Positions 6,435-52,056 of a stretch of DNA of 64,000 nucleotides are shown here, one piece after another. Made by a program: the position numbers and the translations under genes. This stretch comes from Candidatus Scalindua sp. Its GTDB lineage: Bacteria > Planctomycetota > Brocadiia > Brocadiales > Scalinduaceae. Location: contig JABHIW010000105.1 in NCBI GenBank assembly GCA_018670825.1, positions 1 through 64,000 of the forward strand, in the 5' to 3' direction. Position 1 is the first letter of the stretch; every line of letters begins with the position of its first letter. Under the pieces are notes generated by a model. That model had not been told where the DNA came from. It saw nothing but the letters and a program-made list of their open reading frames with translations, and ran no database searches.

Positions 6435-7073
6435 TTAAAGTGGTTCTGAAACACCGGTTCTGCGTATCATCAGAAAGTGGAATGCCATGATAATGCACAT
6501 CATTAGCGGGATACATATGACATGCAACGCGTAAAACAACGAAAAGCCGCGACTGGATATCGCAGTTTCATTCCGATAATCCCCTACATCATGATCCGCC
6601 ACCATAGTCGGCATTCCAATTTCGTTTCCAACTGCATTTATACCCCAATACGACAAATCATTAGCAGGAAGACGAGTACCGGTATAACAGATAATCAATG
6701 TTAGTATCAGTAGCGATGCGCCTGACACCCAGTGAAGTTCTCTTGGATTTTTATAAAGACCCTTAAACAATATCCTTATCATGTGCACTAATAGTGTTAC
6801 CACCATAAAATACGGGGCGACGGCATGGATCTTCTGTATAAACCATCCATAAGAAACCGCATGTCTTATGTACTGAACGCTATTAAACGCACTACTTGCA
6901 GAGGGCACATAATAAAATACTAAGAATATACCCGTAGCAATTTGTAACAAAAACGCGATTAACGCAAACCCACCCATACAGCGAAACCAGCTAATTCCCT
7001 TTGGAATCTTTTTTTTGGTTAAGTTATTTTCAATTATTTCTCTTAGCTGAAATCTTTCCTCAATCCAACCCAT
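6435..7073 (-). CDS. cytochrome b6 (N-terminal cytochrome b)
   Basis: A 212-residue, four-helix cytochrome b6. Both heme-b histidine pairs are present with b6-type spacing: His83/His97 and His184/His199 (14 and 15 apart). Cys32 in SWFRCMGGF aligns with the Cys of chloroplast b6 that binds heme cn (ci) covalently, so a third heme is predicted. It is split from subunit IV, as in b6f complexes. It follows the aminotransferase gene by 7 bases on the minus strand and heads the electron-transfer genes. Expected location is an energised membrane, in anammox bacteria perhaps that of the anammoxosome. Confidence 0.9.
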   Translation of the reverse strand: MGWIEERFQLREIIENNLTKKKIPKGISWFRCMGGFALIAFLLQIATGIFLVFYYVPSASSAFNSVQYIRHAVSYGWFIQKIHAVAPYFMVVTLLVHMIRILFKGLYKNPRELHWVSGASLLILTLIICYTGTRLPANDLSYWGINAVGNEIGMPTMVADHDVGDYRNETAISSRGFSLFYALHVICIPLMMCIIMAFHFLMIRRTGVSEPL

Positions 7074-7080
7074 AGTTTTA

Positions 7081-8388
7081 TTATTTACGGTTTTCCGTAT
7101 AACTTAATGCATCATCAAGTACATCAGTCAATTCGTCAATATTATCCTTATCGATTATCAGGGGAGGTTGAAAGGCTAAAACATTACGGTTGCTCCCGGT
7201 CTTCCCTATAAGGACCCCTTTGTCCTTCATATATTCCAGAATTGTGTCTGTCTCCTGTACAGCAGGCTCTTTACCCTGATTAACGAGCTCTGCACCCAGC
7301 ATCAATCCTATTCCTCTGACATCACCTATTAATGTATGTTTTTCCTGAAGTACTTTCAACTTCTCTTTGAGGTATTCACCCATTGTTTTTGCATTATCCA
7401 CCAGATTATATTTACTTATTACGTCCAAAGTCGCCAGAGCAGACACACTTGTAACAGGGTTTCCTCCGAATGTAGACGCTCCCGGTCTTTTATAAGAAGA
7501 GGCAATCTTATCAGATGTTATAAAACCGCCAACAGGTGTTCCATTAGAAATTGCTTTAGCAAATGTCATGATATCCGGCTCAACACCGGAATGCTCAATG
7601 GCAAACATCTTACCGGTCCTCCCGAATCCCGTCTGTATTTCATCCGTAATAAACAATATTCCGTGTTTATCCAATATCTCTTTAACCACTTTGAAATATT
7701 CGTCTGGTGGAGTTATAATACCACCGTTACCCTGTATAGGCTCAGCAATAAACGCAGCAACCTCTCCTGACGTAGATGTTTCTATTACCTTTTCTATCTG
7801 TCTTGCACATTCAAGATTACAATCAGGATATTTAAGTTTGAAAACACAACGATAACAGTAAGCATTAGGCACAAAGCTGATACCTCCAACAGGATTAGTA
7901 TCCGTACGCCAGAACTTCAATCCTGTCACGCTCATAGTCAATTTTGTTCTTCCGTGCAAACCGTTATAAAGTGAAAGGAATTCATGCTTGCCAGTATATA
8001 TTTGAGAAAGCAATAACGCACCCTCATTCGCTTCTGACCCACTCGCGCAAAAGAAACTTTTCCTTAGGTTCTGAGGAGTGACATGTGCAAGCCTTTCAGC
8101 AAGATCTACTATTGGCTGAGTTAAATATATCGTTGTAGTATGTTGAAGGGTCCTTACCTGTTCACATATCTTATCCACAATCTCAGGATGACAGTGTCCT
8201 GCATTTAATACGGAAACACCGGCATAAAAGTCCAGATATTTTTTCCCGGAATGATCAAAAACATACTGCCCTTCTCCTCTTACCATCTGTACAGGTTCTT
8301 GATAAAAATGATAGACACAGGGAATCAGGAATTCCTTTTTTTTACGAATTATTTCTTGTGGGCCAATATATGATTCTTTATTTTGCAT
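7081..8388 (-). CDS. class III PLP-dependent aminotransferase
   Basis: A 435-residue fold-type I aminotransferase of subgroup III (alanine-glyoxylate 2, ornithine, 4-aminobutyrate group). Visible features are CASGSEANEGALLL (cofactor phosphate binding), ITDEIQTGFGRTGK (pyridine-ring Asp) and MTFAKAISNGTPVGGF containing the Schiff-base Lys. Overall it resembles alanine-glyoxylate aminotransferase 2, but the substrate is not certain. A small insertion, YCYRCVFKLKYPDCNLEC, carries four cysteines. The stop lies 7 bases before cytochrome b6, so it may be co-transcribed with the cytochrome genes despite having no obvious biochemical link. Confidence 0.85.
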   Translation of the reverse strand: MQNKESYIGPQEIIRKKKEFLIPCVYHFYQEPVQMVRGEGQYVFDHSGKKYLDFYAGVSVLNAGHCHPEIVDKICEQVRTLQHTTTIYLTQPIVDLAERLAHVTPQNLRKSFFCASGSEANEGALLLSQIYTGKHEFLSLYNGLHGRTKLTMSVTGLKFWRTDTNPVGGISFVPNAYCYRCVFKLKYPDCNLECARQIEKVIETSTSGEVAAFIAEPIQGNGGIITPPDEYFKVVKEILDKHGILFITDEIQTGFGRTGKMFAIEHSGVEPDIMTFAKAISNGTPVGGFITSDKIASSYKRPGASTFGGNPVTSVSALATLDVISKYNLVDNAKTMGEYLKEKLKVLQEKHTLIGDVRGIGLMLGAELVNQGKEPAVQETDTILEYMKDKGVLIGKTGSNRNVLAFQPPLIIDKDNIDELTDVLDDALSYTENRK

Positions 8389-8406
8389 TATTATTTTTTA
8401 AAGATT

Positions 8407-8845
8407 TTCTCACGCAAAGGCGCAAAGAGCGCTGAGGGATTTATTCGTCCAAGCCATTTACAATCCGTGTAAAACCATCCCTCATCAAGTCCTCGCCAAA
8501 GTTCAATAAGTAGCCAAGCTTACATCCTGTCAGCCTGAGATAAGTTAATACTTGTTTTTTATGTGCTTTTGTGACAGATGCAACTGATTTTAATTCCAAG
8601 ATTACCTTGTTTTCAATAATAACATCTGCTCTGAATCCTTCGTCAAATTTTATTCCATCATATTCTATTAATACGGGAACTTACCTTTCAACATTTAAAC
8701 CAAGTTCTTTGTGAATTGTAGTTGAAGCACCAACTACCGCTTTCCCAATCCCTGGCCCAGACCGCAGGGCGGTTCGCACCAGGGCAGGCACATTTTCAGT
8801 CATCATACTTTTTCCATTTGCGATCTTTGCGGCTCTGCGTGAGAA
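8407..8845. mobile_element. inverted-repeat-bounded cassette carrying a dead GxxExxY gene
   Basis: The left end (8407-8432) reads TTCTCACGCAAAGGCGCAAA then GAGCGC. The right end (8820-8845), read inward on the minus strand, is TTCTCACGCAGAGCCGCAAA then GATCGC: three mismatches in 26. The pair exactly brackets the broken GxxExxY gene, so the whole looks like a unit that moves or moved with its gene. No transposase is present; movement would need to be in trans. The target-site duplication is not evident. Confidence 0.55.
8441..8806 (-). pseudogene. GxxExxY family protein, degraded
   Basis: The minus-strand frame from ATG 8806 to TAA 8441 reads as a GxxExxY-family protein (short proteins with a PDDEXK-like core). 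It has three lesions. An in-frame segment reading VPALVRTALRSGPG (about 8747-8791) splits MMTEN from IGKAVVGA. The usual ELGPGLLExxY region is missing, so HKELG joins directly to LNVER. A TAA stop (8681-8683) replaces the expected Gln before VPVLIEYDGIKFDEGFRADV. The C-terminal half (LELKSV, QVLTYLRLTG, GYLLNFG) is otherwise intact and in frame. Confidence 0.8.
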
Positions 8846-8864
8846 CTTTTTTTAAGTTATACTT

Positions 8865-9632
8865 TCATTTTGTAGATGTAAGTTGATTAAGGAAAAATAT
8901 GACTTCCGGGTTATCAGGATTAATCTCCTGTAACCGTTTAAAAATGTTTATTGCATTCTCCACTTCACCATTCTCCACATAGGCGGTGCCTAAATTTGTA
9001 TACCCTTTTTCCAATTCAGGATTATCTATTACAACATTCCTGATGATTTCTATTCCTTTATTAATATCACCCCCCAGTATTCCAGGTTTGTTAATATACA
9101 TTCTTGCATTCTCAATTCGTGCCATAGGATTATTTTTATCAATCTGCAGTGCGATGTCGATATCCTCCTCCGCCAGACTTCCATTCTTCATCCCGGAAAT
9201 CATGCCTGATATCTTGTTAGAAATAAGAGCTCCCCTTACCCTGTACGATTCAGAAAAATTATCATTCAGTTTAATAGATTTATCCGCGAATGGCATTCCT
9301 TCCTCGGCGATAGCAACCCTTTTGGCCTTCAAAGCCTTCTTCACTTTCTTTACCGTACTTTGTACAATTTCAAAGTTTTTTATGTCACACAATCCGAGAT
9401 ATGCTGATGCGGTATAGTAAGCGTATTCATAGTCAGATGGATTATCATTACACAGTTGTATGAATATCTTTTTTGCATCTTGCAACAGTTGTTCATTGTA
9501 TGTATTACTTCCTTTTTCAAGATACTTTTTTGCCTGTTCAAACCTATCATTCCCCGCATCTGAAACTACGGCATTAAAAGAAACAATAAGTAAAATAAAG
9601 AATAGTATTCCTGCTTTTTTAAGCATTATCAT
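8865..9632 (-). CDS. exported TPR-repeat protein
   Basis: A 255-residue protein with a signal peptide (hydrophobic residues about 5-24, ending near SDAGN) and degenerate tetratricopeptide repeats. The clearest are near the C-terminus: LEKGYTNLGTAYVENGEVEN followed by AINIFKRLQEINPDNPEV. TPR arrays mediate protein-protein contacts, here presumably in the periplasm or anammoxosome lumen. Two close in-frame ATGs exist; AAGGTA upstream suits either. It stands alone between the GxxExxY cassette and the U32 peptidase gene. No partner can be named. Confidence 0.8.
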   Translation of the reverse strand: MIMLKKAGILFFILLIVSFNAVVSDAGNDRFEQAKKYLEKGSNTYNEQLLQDAKKIFIQLCNDNPSDYEYAYYTASAYLGLCDIKNFEIVQSTVKKVKKALKAKRVAIAEEGMPFADKSIKLNDNFSESYRVRGALISNKISGMISGMKNGSLAEEDIDIALQIDKNNPMARIENARMYINKPGILGGDINKGIEIIRNVVIDNPELEKGYTNLGTAYVENGEVENAINIFKRLQEINPDNPEVIFFLNQLTSTK

Positions 9633-13005: not shown

Positions 13006-15326
13006 TTTGGTTTAAACAATAAAATACATGCTGGTAAAATAAGCAGAACAGCGAAAATTGCGCTCACCATTGTTATACCGGTCAGCAATCCAAAATATTG
13101 AATGGCCTTAAAGTTCGAGAGGCTAAAAACCAGAAACCCACACGTTGCAACAATGGTAGTAAAGATTAATGCCCTGCCGACTCCGGAGAGTGTACGCTGT
13201 ATTGCAAGGTAATGGTCACCGTCTTTTTTAAATTCCTCTTTGAAACGGTATAGAAAATGGATTGTGTCATCAACCGAAATCCCTATCGCGACACTCGCTA
13301 TCATAATTGTCGCGACATCCAGGTTTATTCCCACGTATCCCATAACGCCAAGGGTGACAGCAATGGGAACCAAATTGGGTATCATACTCATCATGCCAAT
13401 TCTTGCCGATTTCAAGAGCAGTGCAATACATATGAAAATCAAGATAAAAGCAAGGGTAAATGTCTTTATCTGGCTCTCAATCAAGTATCCCTGCATGTCC
13501 ATAAGAAGCGGCACGATACCGGTGATAGTGCAAACAACGTTTAATGGAAAATTTGCCTTAATAAATCCTTCGATATCATTTACTATCGCCTGGTATCTGG
13601 AGGAACCTACGTTTTTCATTCTTACGGAAACACGTCCTTCATTGTAATCTTCTGTGTAAAGGCTTTTGACTATAGTATCTCCATGCAGTGAGGCAAGCTT
13701 TACATAATCAATCGCCTTATCTTTTGTTATCACCTGACTGTCTGGGTTATCTTTATTGAGTAATGTGTTAAGATATTTTACATAATCTGCCACAGAAACA
13801 CTCTTGGTCACCTCAGGTATTCCTTTTAAATGGTCCTGTAAATTTTCCATATTCACAAGGACATCTGGCTGAAACACACCTCCTATTTTTCCGGCATCAA
13901 CAACGATATCCATGGGTATAAGTCCCATTAATTCCTTCTCAATATGTTCCGTTGATATTGTTATCTCACTGCTCTCAGGAAACGACTCAAATATGCTGGA
14001 TTCAGCATCAATCTTTGTGATTCCATAAATCGCAACACCAACGAACAGCAAACTCAAGGCAAAGACATATATAGTATAATTTTTAACAAACCTTCCAATA
14101 AACCCGTATAAGCCCCGAAATTCCTTATGACCAGACTCACGGTCTTTTTGAATATTCATGAATGGTCTACTCATCCATTCCGGAAAAAGAGAAAGCATGC
14201 CAGGTACAAGGGTTATACAGACAATGAATGACATCATTATTCCTGCAGCCATAAATATGCCGGTAGTTTTAACCGGTGTTACATCACTGGCTATTAGTGA
14301 AAGGAAGCCAATCGAAGTAGTAACACACATCAGAAAACAAGGCACGGATATGTGTTTTACTGTTTTCAACATACTTTCTCTCCTATCACCAGTAATCTTA
14401 ACTTCCTGATAAAATCTATTTAGTATGTGTACGGTAGTCGCCAATGAAATTATGAAAATAAGGGGGATAAGCATCCCAGATACCATATTCATTTTATTGC
14501 CAAACATAACAAACAAGCCAACTGTCCATATAATATTTATACTGATTGTTATCGCTGGAATTAATATTCCGGAAATATTATTAAAAAGTGCTAGCAGTAT
14601 AATGAGTGCTACTGCAAACATTACCGGAGTGAAAGTCCTCATGTCCTTTTGCGACATTCGATCCAGTTCTGTATTTACGATTGATGGACCCGCCAGAAAG
14701 AAATCCTTCTGTGGGCCATTTACTTTATCTATTACTTCTTGTAATGGAGGTTGAGACGGCCCATTGCTGTCTTCAATTTCTACCGCCCTCAGTATCTCCC
14801 TGGTTTCCTTTACCAGACTCCCTCTTGATTCCGGTGACCCCTTTGCCACTATCGCTATAATTGCGGTTGTTTCACCATCGCTTGATATCACATTATTAAT
14901 GTACATTGGATCATCTAAAATCTTTTCTTTAAAAACCTCAATGACAGATTTTGTCTTATTTCTCTTTAAAATTTCTTTAAAATATGGAGAGGATAACTTA
15001 TCTTTGTAAACACTTGCCAGAGACATTACACTCCTTACACCCTTAACCGCCTCCAGACTTGTTGCTATATCATTAATTAACTTAACCTTTTTACCGGTAA
15101 AAAGATCATTACCATCAATTGCGATTATAAGAAACTCATCATCCCCAAACTTATCTATAAAGTCGTAATAATAATCAAGCTTGGGATCGTTATGTTTCAA
15201 CCATACTTCAATAGAATTATCAGTCTTTGATTTAATTGCATAATGCCCAAACAGACCGGTTAAAAGCCCTATCAGGACAAAAAACACTATACGATATTTT
15301 AGTATTACACCTGCAATTCGATCCAT
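13002..15326 (-). CDS. RND/MMPL-family lipid-type exporter
   Basis: A 774-residue membrane protein with about 12 helices arranged as two RND halves: one helix, a large extracytoplasmic loop, then five helices, repeated. The N-terminal KTDNSIEVWLKHNDPKLDYY is typical of the MMPL/HpnN-like branch, which moves lipids and hydrophobic compounds rather than drugs. Second-half features include VGISVDDTIHFLYRF, the helix-4-type acidic motif of this branch. It lies between the SCP-2 gene (3 bases upstream) and the acyl-activating gene (4-base overlap), so all three form one operon. Confidence 0.88.
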   Translation of the reverse strand: MDRIAGVILKYRIVFFVLIGLLTGLFGHYAIKSKTDNSIEVWLKHNDPKLDYYYDFIDKFGDDEFLIIAIDGNDLFTGKKVKLINDIATSLEAVKGVRSVMSLASVYKDKLSSPYFKEILKRNKTKSVIEVFKEKILDDPMYINNVISSDGETTAIIAIVAKGSPESRGSLVKETREILRAVEIEDSNGPSQPPLQEVIDKVNGPQKDFFLAGPSIVNTELDRMSQKDMRTFTPVMFAVALIILLALFNNISGILIPAITISINIIWTVGLFVMFGNKMNMVSGMLIPLIFIISLATTVHILNRFYQEVKITGDRRESMLKTVKHISVPCFLMCVTTSIGFLSLIASDVTPVKTTGIFMAAGIMMSFIVCITLVPGMLSLFPEWMSRPFMNIQKDRESGHKEFRGLYGFIGRFVKNYTIYVFALSLLFVGVAIYGITKIDAESSIFESFPESSEITISTEHIEKELMGLIPMDIVVDAGKIGGVFQPDVLVNMENLQDHLKGIPEVTKSVSVADYVKYLNTLLNKDNPDSQVITKDKAIDYVKLASLHGDTIVKSLYTEDYNEGRVSVRMKNVGSSRYQAIVNDIEGFIKANFPLNVVCTITGIVPLLMDMQGYLIESQIKTFTLAFILIFICIALLLKSARIGMMSMIPNLVPIAVTLGVMGYVGINLDVATIMIASVAIGISVDDTIHFLYRFKEEFKKDGDHYLAIQRTLSGVGRALIFTTIVATCGFLVFSLSNFKAIQYFGLLTGITMVSAIFAVLLILPACILLFKPK

Positions 15327-15329
15327 AAA

Positions 15330-15749
15330 CTATAAATAATTAACAAGAACGTTCATCTTAAGGGCAATCATTATGTTACCTGCAATCTTGACTTTTCTTT
15401 TGAAAAAAGCCTTTTGCGGTGTAAATTCTCTTTTTAAAATGGACATAAAAGTTTCACAATCCATTCGAAATGTTGATACCGGACGTAATACCGTTTCATT
15501 TGACGAAGAGCAGATCTCAGGGGAATTTCTTACAACACGCGTTAAATGTCCACCTTCCACTACAATAGTCCAACTACCACCGTTGTCTCCATCAATGTCA
15601 AATCTGATAACAGTATTAAGGCTCTCAATCTTGGGCAAAGAGCAAAAGTTTACCCGTGCAAAAATCAACTGCTCAAAATATTCGACAGGAGTTATTCCAT
15701 TTGCAATATCCGGTCGTTTTTCAAAATCGCCTGGCTTTATGTCAATCAT
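15330..15749 (-). CDS. SCP-2-like sterol/lipid carrier domain protein
   Basis: A 139-residue protein resembling the SCP-2 fold. A central strand region reads VIRFDIDGDNGGSWTIVVEG, and the end is FKRKVKIAGNIMIALKMNV, close to the common FxGKxKIxGDMxLALKL ending of SCP-2 domains. Such domains bind sterols, hopanoids or acyl lipids in a hydrophobic tunnel. There is no signal peptide, so it should act in the cytoplasm. It sits 3 bases before the exporter and 36 bases after the SDR-type reductase, supporting a role in handing a lipid to or from these enzymes. Confidence 0.7.
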   Translation of the reverse strand: MIDIKPGDFEKRPDIANGITPVEYFEQLIFARVNFCSLPKIESLNTVIRFDIDGDNGGSWTIVVEGGHLTRVVRNSPEICSSSNETVLRPVSTFRMDCETFMSILKREFTPQKAFFKRKVKIAGNIMIALKMNVLVNYL

Positions 15750-45510: not shown

Positions 45511-46851
45511 CTACTCTTCTTCTATCTCAAATTTCCCTTGCTGATGTTTAAACCTGGGATTATCCAGATCCTGGACCAATTCCGTGTACTCCTGTACTGA
45601 CACATTATTATACCAGTATCCGGTAAATCGTGCGACATTCATAAAAACTACAAATAGACCGACTACAAGACCGGCATAGACCGCATAATGGACCTTCTTC
45701 CCAAGCCCCAAAACTTTCATATCAAGCGCTCCATTTACCGGGCACGAATCAACACAATCATAGCATCCCAGACATTCTACATCATAAACAATACTCTTTT
45801 TCTCTACTTCTATATGAACAGGACAGGCAACCGTACACTTACTGCAATCAATACATGTCTTTTTGTTTCTCACTATTCTGGTTGGACTGGCCCATCCCAT
45901 GATACCTATCAAGGCGCCATACGGGCAAAAATACCTGCACCAGTAATTCTTACTGAAGATGGAGAAAATAAAAATAACCGATAAAATAATTATTGCCAGA
46001 ACGGAAAGATTCATGAAAAACTTCATCATCTTTATATCAGCAACTTTCATATACGGGGCCCTTTCAAATATCATCCCAATCTGTGCCGCCGACATCTTTA
46101 TCACAATGTTAACGGTAAAAAAAGCCAAAAGGGTATACTTCCACGCACGCGCGATAGCATCTTCCACACGAGCGGGCCAAATCTTCCGGGGAAGGACAAA
46201 GGGTATGACAATGGCTGCAATCATAAAAGGGAAGATATACTTCATACTTGGAGATTTAAACGAGGCAAACGTTATCATATCCAGAAGCATCAAGGCGACA
46301 ATCGGTGTTGTTATCATGCTGAGACCGCAGGTAAGTTTTACCGGAAACTTTTCCAACCAATAGCTAACCTTACTGTTAAATTTAGACTTCAGCCAATCAC
46401 CAAATCTCCATGCCCACTCCGACATTGTTCCAACCGGACATATCCAGCTGCAAAAACCCCTTTGAAAAAGAAACGATGTTACCAGAATAGAAGCGAATAT
46501 AATAAAGCCCGCTGGATGCAAAGGGTCTACCGCCCCGGTACCCAGAAAATACTTCAACCCCATAAATGCGCCTATAGGCAAAAATGCCTCTATCCCTGGC
46601 GGTCTTGCCACAAAAGCAGTAACACCGCCGGATTCACAATATCGCACAAACAGATAAAACGACCATCCAATGTATATTGTTATAATAAAAAACGAAATCT
46701 GTGAAAACCATCTAAACCTGAGCGAAGTGATCCATGATGATTTCTTCTTTTTTGATACCGGTGATTTACCGGTTTTCTGTATCGAATCTTCTGTTATTAC
46801 AGCCAAGACACTCTCCCATTTCAGTAACAAGTACGTAATCGCCTGAAACAT
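45511..46851 (-). CDS. NapH/CcoG-like membrane polyferredoxin
   Basis: A 446-residue membrane protein with about eight helices. Two CxxxCP motifs in the membrane part (GFCSWICPVGTMSEW and WCRYFCPYGALIG) and a pair of cytoplasmic 4Fe-4S sites (CIDCSKCTVACP and CLGCYDCVDSCP) are the hallmark of NapH/NosR/CcoG-type proteins. These pass electrons between quinol and periplasmic or cofactor-assembly partners. The short C-terminal tail after the last helix is acidic. No nap, nos or cco genes are adjacent, so the partner is unknown. A following DICT-like gene is probably co-transcribed. Confidence 0.85.
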   Translation of the reverse strand: MFQAITYLLLKWESVLAVITEDSIQKTGKSPVSKKKKSSWITSLRFRWFSQISFFIITIYIGWSFYLFVRYCESGGVTAFVARPPGIEAFLPIGAFMGLKYFLGTGAVDPLHPAGFIIFASILVTSFLFQRGFCSWICPVGTMSEWAWRFGDWLKSKFNSKVSYWLEKFPVKLTCGLSMITTPIVALMLLDMITFASFKSPSMKYIFPFMIAAIVIPFVLPRKIWPARVEDAIARAWKYTLLAFFTVNIVIKMSAAQIGMIFERAPYMKVADIKMMKFFMNLSVLAIIILSVIFIFSIFSKNYWCRYFCPYGALIGIMGWASPTRIVRNKKTCIDCSKCTVACPVHIEVEKKSIVYDVECLGCYDCVDSCPVNGALDMKVLGLGKKVHYAVYAGLVVGLFVVFMNVARFTGYWYNNVSVQEYTELVQDLDNPRFKHQQGKFEIEEE

Positions 46852-47037
46852 ACAAGGTATACGTACGGTAAAATTCTTAAAATTCTCGTGTTTTTTTCAA
46901 AATAACCACCTGTTTAAGGTGCGAAATATATCATAAACCGTGATAGAAAAGTGTCAAGTATTTTGTTTAAAACCCGCTTATTACTCAGTAGCATCCGGTT
47001 AGGTTTTTGCACTTGTTCCATTTATTGTCCGAAAGCT

Positions 47038-47069
47038 GTCATTCCCGCATTCTTTTAGCGGGATCCAGG
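47038..47069. repeat. TCATTCCCGC hairpin repeat
   Basis: TGTCATTCCCGC and GCGGGATCCAGG flank ATTCTTTTA; CCCGC pairs with GCGGG. It is the same family as the repeat at 11-37. The remainder of 46852-47387 holds degenerate repeats (for example AATCCGTGAAATTCGTGTCT near 47173) and the promoter region of the defence-like operon, with no clear consensus. Confidence 0.55.
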
Positions 47070-47387
47070 ATGAACAAACAGGTGTACACCTTACAAGCTT
47101 GTACTCGTACCCGTCCGTATGAATGCTATTTGCCTGGTGTGGAGAATAATCTATTTTTTCTCTTTTAGTGTCAATCCGTGAAATTCGTGTCTAATGTATT
47201 TTGCCTTGCAAAACACCCCCACTCTTTTATAATACCCCTGAACAGGAAGAAGCCACAGATCACTTTTACCACATTTTAAATATCTTCAAAAAGATAGTTT
47301 TACTTGTTTCATAAGAAGTAAGATTTTCCATATACATTTATATTTGCAGAAGTTTTCACATTTAACTTCTTTTGTATATAACAAATC

Positions 47388-48542
47388 ATGAAAAGTGTAT
47401 TTATACTATACATGCCTAAAAGTAATTATGAGGCGATGGTACACTATGAAGATACAATAAAAAACAAGGTTAAACCTGAAAGAATATTTCGCTATGTCGA
47501 TCATAATCTAAGAGCTCGGTTGACCAATCTTTTCGGGAATAGACCAATTGCCGCTTGGGGATCACGTGATTCTGCTGCTAATAGATCACGGTTTGAAAGC
47601 ATGTCTGTTGGTGATGATATCCTTATTGTTGAAGGGGAAACAATAAAGCTTTTGGGTAAAATTGCTGACAAGACTATTAATCCTGACTTGTCTAGAGATC
47701 TTTGGAAAAACCTAAAAGGTGATACAACTGACGGATGGGACTTGATATATTTTATTGCTAATCCCTTGGAAATTGAATTGCCTTTCAGTGAATTCAAGAA
47801 GCTATTCAATTATAGTCAGAATTATAGTTTGCGAGGTTTTACAAATGTTGCTAAAGACAAATTAGAAGAATTTTATTCAAGATATGATGATTTATATTCA
47901 ATACTGATACGAATAAGAAATGGTGATACATTTGAAGAAAAGAAAGATGCCGCTTATGAGAGTGATATCGAAGAAGATAAAACGGGTGCAGTAAAAGAAA
48001 ATGTTAATGAAGATTTGTATGATAGCGAAGAACCTTCTGAACATGTACAAATGCAATGGAAGCTCCTGCGTTTAGGCCAGAAAGCAGGATCAAAAGTATG
48101 GATACCCCGTAACGACCAGTCGAGAATCAAGAAAGAATACCAATTTAATAACTTCGAGTCTGAATTTACAGCAGGCATAGACACACCGTCTAAATATGTT
48201 GAAAATATCGATGTGGTGTGGAAAGAAGAGTTTAGAATTGATGCCGCTTTTGAAGTTGAACATACTACTTCCATTTATTCAGGATTGTTACGATTTTCAG
48301 ATCTAAAAATAATTGCTCCTAATAGTAATTATCCACTTTTTATTGTAGCACCAAAATCAAAACGTAATCGTTTGTTGGATCAAATCAAACGGCCTACTTT
48401 TAGAAAAATTGAATTTGAAAAGAAGGTTAGATATTTATCTTATGAAGCAGTTAATGAAATAGACGATTTCTTTAAAGATACGACAAGTGGGTTGAATATT
48501 GACTTGTTAATTGGAAAGTCAGAATCATTGTTGGCATCCTGA
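47388..48542 (+). CDS. probable modification-sensing endonuclease (PUA/EVE-like plus nuclease domain)
   Basis: A 384-residue protein with two parts. The N-terminal ~170 residues contain IAAWGSRDSAANRSRFESM then SVGDDILIVEG and GWDLIYFIANPLEIELPF, the layout of PUA/EVE/YTH-like readers found in modification-dependent restriction enzymes. An acidic linker (about residues 180-220) follows. The C-terminal part has IDVVWKEEFRIDAAFEVEHT then TSIYSGLLRFSDL, a PDDEXK-like core with Asp and the ExE pair, where FEVEHTTSIYSG is a known restriction-type text. It is the first gene of a four-gene plus-strand operon. A role in cutting modified foreign DNA is inferred. Confidence 0.65.
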   Translation: MKSVFILYMPKSNYEAMVHYEDTIKNKVKPERIFRYVDHNLRARLTNLFGNRPIAAWGSRDSAANRSRFESMSVGDDILIVEGETIKLLGKIADKTINPDLSRDLWKNLKGDTTDGWDLIYFIANPLEIELPFSEFKKLFNYSQNYSLRGFTNVAKDKLEEFYSRYDDLYSILIRIRNGDTFEEKKDAAYESDIEEDKTGAVKENVNEDLYDSEEPSEHVQMQWKLLRLGQKAGSKVWIPRNDQSRIKKEYQFNNFESEFTAGIDTPSKYVENIDVVWKEEFRIDAAFEVEHTTSIYSGLLRFSDLKIIAPNSNYPLFIVAPKSKRNRLLDQIKRPTFRKIEFEKKVRYLSYEAVNEIDDFFKDTTSGLNIDLLIGKSESLLAS

Positions 48543-48627
48543 TAATAAATAGGGACATCTTTCCCCAATTATTCCATTCATAAGCACGGGTATTTTCCCT
48601 AAAAATATTTTCATTTTCGAAAAAGAT

Positions 48628-49101
48628 ATGCAGTCAATGGACGATTTGAAACGAATAAAAATATTTTTTGATGAAGGACGAAAGTTTGACCCTCGTAACA
48701 TTAAACTTCTTATGGGAATCACTGGTTTGTACTTTATATACAACGATGAAATCAGAATACAGTATCCATTTCATAAATCGAGACTGATTTATATTGGGAT
48801 GAGCGAGAAAAAAATGAATAGTATAGGCAAGCGCTTGCAGGGACACTTAGAAGGCAAATCAGGAAATAGAGGTATTGTCAGCTACGGCAAAGTCAATAGT
48901 CTTTCCTTTACCTATATCAACTTTGAAATGCTTAAAGGAACATGGTCTTTAAGAATAGAAGACTTGGAAAGCTATTTTATTCTCGATTTCGTGAAACGGT
49001 ACGGTGTGTATCCCATTTGCAATAACAAATCGGGATACGATATTCTCCAAAGCGAGCTGGACAACAACCTGATTATAGACTGGAAATACTTTGAATTATG
49101 A
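48628..49101 (+). CDS. GIY-YIG-type nuclease
   Basis: A 157-residue protein with the GIY-YIG pattern: GLYFIY (near residue 32), RLIYIGMSE (near 49-57), then KRLQGHL with the catalytic Arg. A downstream Glu (RIEDLESYF) is followed by YPICNNKSG, matching the Glu and Asn positions of these nucleases. It has no DNA-binding extension, so targeting is probably by its operon partners. The stop overlaps the next start as ATGA. It is 85 bases after the first gene. Confidence 0.75.
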   Translation: MQSMDDLKRIKIFFDEGRKFDPRNIKLLMGITGLYFIYNDEIRIQYPFHKSRLIYIGMSEKKMNSIGKRLQGHLEGKSGNRGIVSYGKVNSLSFTYINFEMLKGTWSLRIEDLESYFILDFVKRYGVYPICNNKSGYDILQSELDNNLIIDWKYFEL

Positions 49102-49283
49102 CTAAAGAAATAAAAAGCGGGAAAAGAATACTAGACGAGTTTTTTAAGGACATAAAGACCGATGAAAGTCTTGACCGGGACACTGTTGCAGCTATCGTTA
49201 ATTTATACGAATCCGGCAAGCTCACAGACAGAAATCTAACTAGTACACTATCCGAATTAAGAGAAGGTAAGGACAATGGTTGA
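49098..49283 (+). CDS. 61-residue linker protein of the nuclease/ATPase operon
   Basis: A 61-residue, charged, helical protein (KSGKRILDEFFKDIKTDESL ... LTSTLSELREG). No family recognised. It starts inside the GIY-YIG stop (ATGA) and ends 8 bases inside the ATPase gene, so all three are translated in a coupled manner. Such fixed small genes are often adaptors, toxins' partners or regulatory subunits. Its position argues that it is real despite its length. Confidence 0.65.
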   Translation: MTKEIKSGKRILDEFFKDIKTDESLDRDTVAAIVNLYESGKLTDRNLTSTLSELREGKDNG

Positions 49284-51699
49284 AATAAATAACTTATCTA
49301 TTACTGGATTGCGTGGAGTGCGCTACAATATTTCTATTCCTCTGAATGGTAAGTCCGTACTGCTATATGGAGACAATGGTACGGGTAAAAGCACATTGTC
49401 AGATGTATTTGAGTGGTTTTTTTATGACCGGATAAACCACCTTATACCAGAGATAGGAAGAAAAGGCTACGAGGGATTGCGCAACATTTTTATGAATGAT
49501 AATGAGACCGGCTCATTATCATTAGAGTTCACAAAAAAGGTGTACAACTGTAAAAAGACTATTGAGTTTAAAAACAATAATCTTAAAGCAAAGCTATCCA
49601 ATGAATCAGAGGATTTTACCGACTATCTCAAGGCTTCACAGGACGAAAACCTCATACTGCGTTATAGAGAGCTGATAAATTTTGTGCTTTCTTCTAAATC
49701 TGAAAAATTAGGCACTTTGTCAGAAATTATCGGTTATTCAAAAGTAACAGATACTAGGGATATGCTACGCATAGTTTACAACAGGTTATCCAAAGAGATA
49801 AAGTCCAAAGGGTTTGATAATCTGATTAATCACCAGAACGGTCAAATAATTGCTCAGTTTGACCAGAATATAACCTCTGACGAACAATTTGTTGAAGTAG
49901 TAAAAGTGTTGGTGGAACCATTCAAGTTGGATATGAAGATTAAGGTGCTAAAGGATGTTAATGAGGTTCTTGACAAGATTAAAAAGCCAGATGATAGTAA
50001 AGAGATTAAACAAGAAACATTTCTGGGGAAGATTGAAGAAAGTTTGGTTAACCTTCCCACCAACCTAGATGAGCTGGAGAAACAATACAAGGACTACAAA
50101 AAACAATTTGATGCGATAGTTTCGGATATAGAAAAGTTAAAGAAACTTACTATTGAGAAACTACTTACTACTGGCAAGGAACTTCTTTCACGTGAAAGCT
50201 ATACGGAGAACAATTGCCCTTTGTGTTTGGAGGGACAGAACAAGGCAGAATTGCTTTCCGATATTAAAGACAGAATTACTGAGTTGGAGGAAATTAAGAA
50301 AGAGCAAAAGGTACTTACAGAATCCAATACTGCGCTTCAACAACAAATCACAGTAACAGTAAGGCCATTGCAATCGATTTTGGATGATAAGCAAATAGAT
50401 GAATTGTGTAATGCCGAACACAAGACGAATATCGAAACTGTTGTCAAAGCAATCGAGGAATACCAGGAACCATTGAAGTTAAAAGTAGCTGGTGAAAATA
50501 AACTGAACGAAGAAAACACGCTCTTAATTCACAGAAAAGAAATAGAGTACTTAGAGAAAGATTGTAGAGTTCAATTAGAGGCATTCAGGAAATCCAGGAA
50601 AATAGACTCCAAGTGGGATGCTCATGGAAAAATCAATATTGCTTCTTATGCCTACACTCAAATAAGGCGTTTAAAAAAAGAGAAAGCGGCCTATGAGAAA
50701 CAACGAGATACAATGGAAGCGGTGTATAGTAGATTTCTTAAAAAGCAGAAGGAAGTTCTTGAAGTCTTTTTGGATACTTACTCGAATAAAATTGATGAGA
50801 TATTCCAATTTCTTAATCCTGGTGAGAAAATTGAGAACATTAAACTCGTTCCCATTGAAAAGGACGATGTGTTATCCGGTATTACTATCCAGTTTGATTT
50901 TCAGGAATGCAAAGGAGTTACCCCTCCTCATAAGTTTTTAAGTGAATCACACATAAACTGCCTGGGAATTGCCTTCTTCCTTACTTCCGTCGACGCATTT
51001 AATAAGCAAAATAAGTTTATTGTACTAGATGATCTTATTTCGAGTTTCGATGCGAACCACCGGAAAAGATTTGCTGATTTACTCTTTGAGAAATATGACG
51101 ACTATCAAATCATTTTGCTAACCCACGAAAAGTCTTGGTTTGATATTGTAAAGAATCTAGCACGCAGTAAAGGATGGAACATTAAAACTATAAAGCACAA
51201 CGAGGCTAAAGGAACTCACTTAGAGGATTCACCGCAAACAGTAATGGAACGTATTGAACAGAAAATTGCAAATGGAAATGAATCAGGTCTAGGAAATGAT
51301 GCACGAAAATATCTTGAAAACAAATTAAAACTCATTGCCTTGAACCTTAATGTGGAGGTCGCATTTCGGCTCAATGATGTAAACGAAGACCGGATGGCTT
51401 TCGAGCTGTTGACCAAATTAAAGAGTACAATTACTAAACGAAAAAGTACGGAGTTGGAATCAAAGGAGGTTATTGACAGATTGTTGAGATCATTGTTTAT
51501 TGGCAACAAAGACTCACACGACAGCTCTATTGAACTAACATTCGGAGACATGAAAGCATTTTGGCAGGATGTAACAGACTTTGAAGACCTCTTTTTTTGC
51601 GATACTTGTAAATCTTCGGTATCGCTACGATACTATGACGAAGGGACCAAACAGGTTCGCTGTAAGAAAGGTGAGCTTTCTTATACTTGGAAAAAATAA
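49276..51699 (+). CDS. SMC/RecF-like AAA ATPase with CxxC hook and C-terminal zinc-finger-like tail
   Basis: An 807-residue ABC-type ATPase of the RecF/RecN/SMC-like (AAA_23) group. Walker A is GDNGTGKST at residues 32-40. Long coiled coils flank a CPLC hook near residue 313. A degenerate signature (LSESHINCLGIAF) and Walker B FIVLDDLISSFD follow near residues 565-592. After the ATPase head, ~190 extra residues end in FFCDTCKSSVSLRYY ... VRCKKGE, a possible zinc site. Related ATPases power many anti-phage systems. It probably loads on or senses DNA and controls the two upstream nucleases. Confidence 0.8.
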   Translation: MVEINNLSITGLRGVRYNISIPLNGKSVLLYGDNGTGKSTLSDVFEWFFYDRINHLIPEIGRKGYEGLRNIFMNDNETGSLSLEFTKKVYNCKKTIEFKNNNLKAKLSNESEDFTDYLKASQDENLILRYRELINFVLSSKSEKLGTLSEIIGYSKVTDTRDMLRIVYNRLSKEIKSKGFDNLINHQNGQIIAQFDQNITSDEQFVEVVKVLVEPFKLDMKIKVLKDVNEVLDKIKKPDDSKEIKQETFLGKIEESLVNLPTNLDELEKQYKDYKKQFDAIVSDIEKLKKLTIEKLLTTGKELLSRESYTENNCPLCLEGQNKAELLSDIKDRITELEEIKKEQKVLTESNTALQQQITVTVRPLQSILDDKQIDELCNAEHKTNIETVVKAIEEYQEPLKLKVAGENKLNEENTLLIHRKEIEYLEKDCRVQLEAFRKSRKIDSKWDAHGKINIASYAYTQIRRLKKEKAAYEKQRDTMEAVYSRFLKKQKEVLEVFLDTYSNKIDEIFQFLNPGEKIENIKLVPIEKDDVLSGITIQFDFQECKGVTPPHKFLSESHINCLGIAFFLTSVDAFNKQNKFIVLDDLISSFDANHRKRFADLLFEKYDDYQIILLTHEKSWFDIVKNLARSKGWNIKTIKHNEAKGTHLEDSPQTVMERIEQKIANGNESGLGNDARKYLENKLKLIALNLNVEVAFRLNDVNEDRMAFELLTKLKSTITKRKSTELESKEVIDRLLRSLFIGNKDSHDSSIELTFGDMKAFWQDVTDFEDLFFCDTCKSSVSLRYYDEGTKQVRCKKGELSYTWKK

Positions 51700-51709
51700 T
51701 AGGGAGAAC

Positions 51710-51808
51710 ATGGTCAAACCTAATCTATTGACAAACTATTCAATCCATGTAAGAAAAGTTGCAAATCGGGGGGGGACGCCATACCTATTTAATTTAATAG
51801 CCTCCTAA
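51710..51808 (+). CDS. possible truncated gene, 32 residues
   Basis: A 32-codon frame starts 10 bases after the ATPase stop with AGGGAG upstream and reads MVKPNLLTNYSIHVRKVANR then GGTPYLFNLIAS. It may be a very small fifth gene or the start of a gene cut off by the repeat-rich DNA that follows (51809-52056, including a run of 10 or more C near 51930). No homology recognised. Confidence 0.25.
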   Translation: MVKPNLLTNYSIHVRKVANRGGTPYLFNLIAS

Positions 51809-52056
51809 TCTTCATACCAATACAAGGAAAAGCCTGAAAACCACAGGTTTTCATTTTACAATCTGGCCTATCATGAACATATTAGATATCTATTCGTGCC
51901 AATTCGTGTAATTCGTGCTTGGCATCTATTCCCCCCCCCCTTTTGAATTCGTGCTCGGCCAGGTTGAGCGTAATATTATAATAACTTGAGTTTATGTAAA
52001 AAACTGTTAAAATAAGTACTTTAAATTCGATAACGTTAATTATAGACGGCTTTTAT

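Follow-up and report, generated by a model that had tools for sequence, protein, structure and literature searches.

Our analysis describes a conserved mobile cassette of three overlapping genes, encoding a GIY-YIG nuclease, a 61-residue protein and a zinc-hook ATPase, in a 64,000-nucleotide stretch of DNA from Candidatus Scalindua sp. (hereafter the window; contig JABHIW010000105.1, positions 1 to 64,000). It turns up as a unit in unrelated bacteria, often next to established anti-viral systems, and we regard it as a probable bacterial defence system that has no name yet. More specifically we propose, at a probability of about 45%, that it is a mobile anti-invader cassette in which the GIY-YIG nuclease is coupled through an adaptor of about 60 residues to a Rad50/RloC-like zinc-hook ATPase that may also provide a suicidal second line. 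In the window the three genes follow a putative restriction enzyme gene:

47388–48542, plus strand: putative restriction enzyme gene, 384 residues, with an N-terminal EVE-like/PUA-like module and a PD-(D/E)XK nuclease
48628–49101, plus strand: GIY-YIG nuclease gene, 157 residues
49098–49283, plus strand: small-protein gene, 61 residues, the proposed adaptor
49276–51699, plus strand: Rad50/RloC-like ABC ATPase gene, 807 residues, with a zinc-hook coiled coil and a C-terminal extension

An earlier note on this DNA had read these genes as one four-gene operon and as a candidate undescribed defence system. Its four plus-strand open reading frames (ORFs) are present, as are the overlaps it described: the GIY-YIG gene and the small ORF share the four bases ATGA, and the small ORF and the ATPase gene share 8 bp. 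Coupling by overlap links these three genes but not the restriction enzyme gene, which stands 85 bp from the GIY-YIG gene. A GIY-YIG gene, a short ORF and an ATPase gene lie side by side in all nine loci of the GIY-YIG family (the window, L018, L019, L023, L024, L025, L026, L043 and L044), and because relatives of the three coupled proteins keep the same arrangement elsewhere, it is not a product of chance. The window's proteins are 44–67% (GIY-YIG nuclease, six relatives), 45–53% (small protein, four relatives) and 28–50% (ATPase, six triad relatives) identical to their counterparts, and the pairwise identities of the three proteins agree over the nine loci with r of 0.94–0.96. Six of the nine triads were first found through the ATPase, which calls for caution in reading the co-occurrence count; L043 and L044 were found by the GIY-YIG protein alone and were used neither to build nor to seed the profile, and both hold the full triad. 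The GIY-YIG gene is co-directional with its partners in seven triads and divergent in two (L019 and L026). On a tree of 26 ATPase rows the GIY-YIG carriers form one clade with a Shimodaira-Hasegawa-like approximate likelihood ratio support of 87, in a tree that was built quickly and has some long branches. The row nearest to the window is not from its own order but is L018, a contig of 3,988 bp from a metagenome-assembled genome of the Gastranaerophilales, too short for a binning check.

The earlier note's identification of a GIY-YIG nuclease is upheld by the motifs G33-L-Y35 and Y55-I-G57 and by R69, H73, E114 and N132, all invariant in the seven aligned members, despite Pfam matches that fall below cut-off (GIY_YIG_2 at 0.0012, GIY-YIG at 0.037). 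We take the conserved R, H, E and N residues to be catalytic, by I-TevI precedent. All four proteins were scanned against Pfam, PADLOC and NCBIfam, the last of which returned nothing useful; no PADLOC model matches the GIY-YIG protein or those of its relatives that were scanned, and a sequence search of the PDB with it gave no match.

Some triads have further neighbours. A KTSC or KTSC-like gene of about 75 codons adjoins three of the nine (L018:387-617, L044:2075-2299 and L025:11883-12095); the L018 and L044 proteins are 56% identical, and only the L025 protein exceeds the Pfam cut-off. We considered this gene as a part of the system and keep it as an accessory. In L023 (8287-8868) and L024 (12190-12735) an unannotated protein of 181–193 residues is encoded directly upstream of the GIY-YIG gene; the L024 copy has no Pfam match. 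The end of the protein is, on visual impression only, reminiscent of phage head proteins. The L025 triad is flanked by two inverted copies of one element (L025:6894-8204 and 14165-15475), which stand between the two parts of an OLD-type ATPase gene.

The mobility of the cassette is seen at its site in the window, where homology to five relatives of the same genus ends at about 46981 and resumes at about 51947:

46982–51946: insertion of about 4.97 kb, between a NapH-like gene (45511–46851, minus strand) and ispG (52057, plus strand)

The insertion consists of the four genes, with no other feature of any size. We found ispG in 12 of the 13 genomes of the genus and fetched nine of the 11 others. 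In five of these (L090, L092, L094, L096 and L098) the site is empty, with about 290–330 bp between the NapH-like gene and ispG; L093 has a gap of about 0.6 kb and L097 carries 7 kb of other genes, while in L091 and L095 ispG is preceded by other genes, and the fetched stretch showed no NapH-like gene. The four genes may have come in by a single insertion or by two successive ones. The junction is a variable site in the genus, and its occupants elsewhere include an AAA_21 ATPase (L091), TIR-TPR and GGDEF proteins (L095) and unrelated metabolic genes (L097).

The distribution of the family is patchy. A GIY-YIG profile built from seven loci found the family in 7 of the 62 genomes of the order, which are the same 7 among the 75 of the class, and in 5 of 392 genomes sampled from the phylum, all of them among the seven. 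A tblastn search of 72,556 plasmid records with the GIY-YIG protein gave one match, in Aliiroseovarius. The ATPase reached E <= 1e-10 in 12 of the 392 genomes of the phylum, and a scan of genome contigs with it gave one locus, L018; its relatives occur in 47 plasmid records, of which 15 were opened, and from one set of 15 genomes 12 were opened (G352, G361 and G387 were left out). The small protein gave a weak match in G176 (E 0.0097). Carriage by phages or viruses was considered and rejected, as none of 50,697 phage records matched the ATPase and scans of viral contigs, with 139 pattern matches for the GIY-YIG protein, 27 for the ATPase and 2 for the restriction enzyme, held no relative of any of them.

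Within the triad, the conserved core is the dyad of small protein and ATPase. A short same-strand ORF (45–90 residues) ends between -10 and +30 bases from the ATPase start in 28 of 30 related loci, the exceptions being L059 and L060, and the same arrangement is seen at only 5 of 159 other genes encoding at least 300 residues within these loci (Fisher p 4e-26) and at none of eight RloC-type ATPase control genes. Homology among these short ORFs is established only inside the GIY-YIG clade, and the window's small protein has no meaningful Pfam match and no PADLOC family match. We propose that this predicted protein, an obligate neighbour of the ATPase, is an adaptor.

The ATPase itself carries the following motifs, the last three of them beyond the ATPase core:

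49369–49392, plus strand: Walker A, GDNGTGKS, residues 32–39
50215–50226, plus strand: zinc hook, CPLC, residues 314–317 (CPxC in all 26 tabulated relatives)
51016–51033, plus strand: Walker B, FIVLDD, residues 581–586 (D585 and D586 invariant in all eight aligned sequences)
51304–51318, plus strand: R677-x3-E681, first RloC/PrrC-type motif, in the C-terminal extension
51505–51519, plus strand: N744-x2-S747-H748, second RloC/PrrC-type motif, in the C-terminal extension
51598–51663, plus strand: zinc-ribbon-like tail, C775-x2-C778 ... C796 (CDTC...C, residues 775–796)

The earlier note had described an SMC-like ATPase sensor with a CxxC hook and a zinc-finger-like tail. The hook is as it said, and the head is of the SMC/Rad50 type, with a Pfam AAA_23 match at 3.4e-07, PADLOC matches to the LmuB, mad3 and PDC-S06 models, and 25 PDB sequences, SMC and Rad50 heads, the best at 3e-11. 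It had overlooked the extra domain of about 150 residues that precedes the zinc-ribbon-like tail and makes the protein look more RloC-like than SMC-like or LmuB-like; the tail exists, but the window and L018 lack the fourth cysteine that most relatives have in it. The C-terminal domain is not recognisable in L021, L055 and L058. The paired ATPases of the haloarchaeal plasmids L021 and L055, at 654–657 residues, lie nearer to LmuB in size.

RloC is a Rad50-like zinc-hook ATPase with an anticodon nuclease assigned to the HEPN superfamily (PMC3710099, accessible part). Its nuclease motif is given as Arg-x3-Glu-x36-52-His, often with a Ser before the His, and mutation of any of these three residues abolished activity (both from the accessible part of PMC2610378). 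The cassette ATPase shares the Rad50-like head and the coiled coil with a CxxC zinc hook. The C-terminal domains of the dyads keep Arg-x3-Glu followed by Asn-x2(-4)-His, and equivalents of R677-x3-E681 and S747-H748 are found in all nine triads. We compared these proteins with RloC-type (AAA_13) proteins from the phylum and from plasmids. Whole-length profiles align at 97% probability (hhalign, E 3e-11), and the alignment superposes both motifs, although much of the score comes from the ATPase head. Profiles of the C-terminal region alone, built from 21 of the 26 ATPase rows (five had no clear H-loop cut or were too short), score 26.5 in an alignment that spans the first motif only; the nine triads alone score 24.0. 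The control maxima are 18.9 (21 rows) and 20.0 (triads) over 200 shuffles of the columns for each profile, and the best of 95 unrelated C-termini reaches 18.8, so that as a family the RloC/PrrC-type similarity exceeds all controls, although the window's domain alone does not. A strict motif pattern occurs in all nine triad ATPases, in 13 of the 26 overall and in 4 of 243 unrelated ORFs, and a loose one in 22 of 26 against 21 of 243. No AAA_13-type protein was matched in the window's own genome at E <= 1e-20, and the window's ATPase scores 20.9 bits against Pfam AAA_13, below the cut-off of 36. The absence of a small coupled partner that marks RloC-type genes is not shared by the dyads (28 of 30 against none of eight). 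We read this relationship to RloC/PrrC, as judged from sequence, as real but distant, and the C-terminal domain of the cassette ATPase may be an RNase.

The setting of the other triads is consistent with defence. Four of the eight outside the window adjoin known defence genes: the L023 triad lies directly behind KwaA (6e-58) and KwaB (9e-129), that is, behind Kiwa, as does the L043 triad behind KwaB (1.7e-114); the L024 triad is near a CBASS cyclase (4.9e-71, lacking the first approximately 76 profile positions), a CBASS 2TM effector (5.2e-63) and a DUF1016-type PDC-S02 gene; and the L025 triad is near the OLD-type ATPase and a type I methyltransferase and specificity protein. The L019 triad, on a plasmid, adjoins TniQ, TniB and transposase genes, the L018 contig is too short to judge neighbours, and in L026 and L044 no defence gene was seen when the ORFs were read by eye, no profile scans having been made there.

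These observations suggest a model for the cassette as a mobile anti-invader system. The ATPase would form a dimer joined through its heads and zinc hooks, and this dimer would bind foreign or damaged DNA at ends or odd structures. DNA ends could be the signal, by analogy with RloC, which reportedly responds to DNA breaks (PMC3874168, accessible part). The adaptor, in a predicted complex with both partners, would tie the state of the ATPase to the nuclease; the GIY-YIG enzyme would nick or cut the invading DNA as a first line; and if this failed, the RloC/PrrC-like C-terminal domain would cut host RNA as a suicidal second line. In the Scalindua genome a separate putative modification-dependent restriction enzyme would have arrived with the cassette.

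Several results weigh against this reading. The probabilities that HHalign assigns to the C-terminal profiles are low, at 16% (21 rows) and 8% (triads). Individual C-termini score between 8.8 and 28.3; only six of the 21 exceed the best unrelated control, and that of the window, at 15.4, lies below it. A profile run that included one miscut RloC row gave 28.3 and 17.7, and here the triad value of 17.7 is below the best controls (19.8 and 18.9). The loose motif fails in 4 of the 26 dyad ATPases and, at 21 of 243, is common by chance, and the spacing from Glu to His, 65–66 residues in the triads, is longer than the 36–52 published for RloC. AlphaFold models have predicted local distance difference test values too low for a fold comparison of the ATPase (43.2, from two rows) or a fold search with the restriction enzyme (31.5, from a single sequence). 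Finally, no defence neighbour was recognised for half of the triads outside the window, four of eight.

A broader reading takes the dyad, rather than the triad, as the unit: an unnamed, widespread two-gene guard module. In it an RloC-like ATPase and its obligate adaptor would be combined with various front-line DNA systems, would watch the front line or the DNA, and would trigger RNA-cutting suicide upon front-line failure; the GIY-YIG triad would be the most compact complete form of the module. The front-line partner would be the GIY-YIG nuclease here and other systems elsewhere: BREX in L020, where the dyad (6875-9539) lies between pglX and pglZ of a haloarchaeal locus (by annotation, with PglX also by PADLOC), a type III restriction-modification system in L031, where its neighbours are an SNF2 helicase and a type III methyltransferase, and, in L027, a type IIG/DrmMI-like enzyme. 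Several plasmids carry the dyad alone. We hold this reading only tentatively, and somewhat doubt it. Other loci are also of note. At L028:8593-9210 a 205-residue ORF, HNH-looking by eye and with no Pfam match at 0.01, precedes the dyad, and the two are possibly an HNH counterpart of the GIY-YIG triad. A gene annotated as DUF2130 (L119:1-508) precedes an RloC-type ATPase, and the dyad of L033 follows an ORF (6460-7797) that resembles this gene by eye.

The cassette could also be a subtype of Lamassu or ABC-3C, with the GIY-YIG protein as the LmuA effector, the small protein as LmuC and the ATPase as LmuB; sensing of DNA ends or hairpins would then free the effector, and the C-terminal extension would be purely structural. 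The order of effector, small protein and zinc-hook ATPase fits this, and the PADLOC LmuB model PDLC03859 matches residues 3–640 of the ATPase at 8.7e-23, with similar matches in L019, L020, L024, L031 and L053. However, 13 of the 14 genomes used as controls reach E <= 1e-10 with the same model, as does the RloC-type L112 at 3e-17, and L018, the nearest relative, is not among its matches at E <= 0.01; we therefore reject the match as proof of membership. No PADLOC or Pfam model for LmuA or the ABC-3C C-terminal domain matches the GIY-YIG protein or the restriction enzyme, nor any LmuC (middle-component) family the small protein, at E <= 1. A middle component is lacking in some Lamassu systems. 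The ATPase has 807 residues rather than about 650, its Walker B motif has Asp where Gln is described for LmuB (PMC10586767, accessible part), and the GIY-YIG gene is divergently transcribed in L019 and L026. The earlier note's exclusion of Lamassu thus stands on most features tested, the unspecific LmuB match apart, and we consider membership unlikely.

That all four genes form one system, with reader-nuclease, second nuclease, adaptor and ATPase acting together, was the view of the earlier note, and turns on the first gene, whose product has two parts:

residues about 1–190: N-terminal EVE-like/PUA-like module, also found on HNH nucleases
residues about 217–358: PD-(D/E)XK nuclease domain, with D275 ... 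E289-V-E291

The nuclease half of the proposed modification-reader/nuclease fusion is borne out by a PADLOC REase_II match (3.2e-14, residues 217–358) and by the D...E-x-E motif, also present in two plasmid homologues, which identifies a PD-(D/E)XK nuclease. The reader half is less secure: the module aligns with four EVE domains at 40% probability (hhalign, E 2.9e-4), it is not matched by Pfam EVE, and Pfam returned nothing meaningful for the protein, nor the PDB sequence search any match. A modification-dependent restriction enzyme is a plausible reading of these sequence features. All four genes lie in one insertion whose site is empty in relatives, and they share a strand, with no plus-strand terminator-like site listed by a pattern scan of the 85-bp gap. 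Against a single system, tblastn at E <= 0.1 found no relative of the restriction enzyme in the other eight triad loci, within the fetched flanks (for L018, 386 bp upstream). Relatives also occur without the cassette. The N-terminal half recurs attached to HNH nucleases; the nuclease half recurs in 176 plasmid records, none covering 80% of the query and with other N-terminal halves, and in two other genomes of the order, both without the GIY-YIG family. Set against the 176 records, the GIY-YIG family occurs only in that of Aliiroseovarius, itself without the restriction enzyme. The recurrence of the neighbourhood that the earlier note sought therefore extends to three genes and not to the fourth. 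We reject the four-gene system as a conserved unit and regard joint action in the window as improbable; since no relative was found in the other triads, the first gene has the look of a separate restriction gene that shares the insertion, cargo outside the conserved core.

A DNA-repair or toxin-antitoxin cassette, with the ATPase as an SbcC/Rad50 analogue or the small protein as an antitoxin of the GIY-YIG nuclease, has equally little to recommend it. The ATPase is Rad50-like and the small ORF overlaps both neighbours, as these proposals would have it; the scattered occurrence (in 7 of the order's 62 genomes), the mobility and the defence neighbours speak for defence instead. Moreover, the small ORF is kept beside the ATPase in loci without the GIY-YIG gene, so its product is not the antitoxin of that nuclease.

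A Pbe/CxC-type or Dnd-linked system, in which a zinc-hook ABC ATPase and a small partner guide modification or restriction, is highly improbable: such systems pair the ATPase with DndE and a small protein (PMC10853773, accessible part) and some Dnd/CxC-ATPase loci have a URI (GIY-YIG) nuclease at their boundary (PMC10853773), but the inserted block has no DndE or modification gene, the hook is CPxC and not CxC, the only small gene, at 61 residues, is short for two ribbon-helix-helix repeats, and the PbeC model matches the L024 ATPase at 5.7e-8, far more weakly than LmuB (2.8e-25). As the earlier note held, Wadjet, Septu, Gabija and PARIS can be set aside, since the ATPase matches to PtuA, AriA or JetC models in PADLOC are partial or ATPase-only; for Wadjet (JetABCD: a long SMC, a kleisin, a KITE protein and a Toprim nuclease) there is no JetA, JetB or JetD match, and JetC is not listed for the window's ATPase at E <= 1. 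Its statement that no named system has this composition likewise agrees with what we found in PADLOC, Pfam, NCBIfam and the literature searched; this scope does not include the principal survey of ABC-ATPase conflict systems, in which the dyad may already be drawn. The literature searched for GIY-YIG with anti-phage and SMC-like terms showed nothing on the combination.

If the three-gene anti-invader reading is right, a single small cassette couples DNA cutting, through a dedicated adaptor of about 60 residues, to a sensor of the Rad50/RloC kind that may itself be a suicide RNase. It would bridge families that are usually separate, the Lamassu-type ATPase/effector systems and the RloC/PrrC anticodon nucleases. 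The way in which a Rad50-like ATPase distinguishes foreign from own DNA would become testable, because sensor, adaptor and cutter are each encoded by a gene of their own and can be deleted one at a time. The reading would also account for the pair that many plasmids carry under the annotation of an AAA family ATPase and a hypothetical protein, with no function assigned.

Several known systems share features with the cassette. The anti-phage systems PD-T4-3 and PD-lambda-1 share a GIY-YIG nuclease domain; the accessible part of PMC10952713 describes no ATPase/small-protein cassette for them, and, as noted, this GIY-YIG protein has no PADLOC model. Putative type IV enzymes of the EVE-PD-(D/E)XK and EVE-HNH kinds (PMC7641849 and PMC7897488, accessible parts) resemble the first gene in a reader-like N-terminal module swapped between HNH and PD-(D/E)XK nucleases, but here the module is missed by Pfam EVE and the homology to EVE is only suggestive. 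CxC-ABC/Pbe and Dnd systems likewise have an ABC ATPase core with an obligate small partner and nuclease add-ons that include GIY-YIG, while the cassette has no DndE, no modification genes and a CPxC hook. Lamassu, ABC-3C and DdmABC share the layout of effector, small protein and zinc-hook ATPase, and differ in the LmuA and LmuC matches that the cassette lacks, in its longer ATPase with an extra domain, and in its Walker B Asp in place of Gln. RloC/PrrC (PADLOC PDC-S06, Pfam AAA_13) differ in that the cassette has an obligate small partner, a GIY-YIG partner in one clade, a C-terminal zinc ribbon, a longer Glu-to-His spacing and a sub-cut-off AAA_13 score; they are alike in a Rad50-like ATPase interrupted by a coiled coil with a CxxC zinc hook, in an Asp-Asp Walker B (seen in the RloC-type L112 and L116), in C-terminal R-x3-E and N-x2-S-H motifs in the same order, and in linkage to restriction genes.

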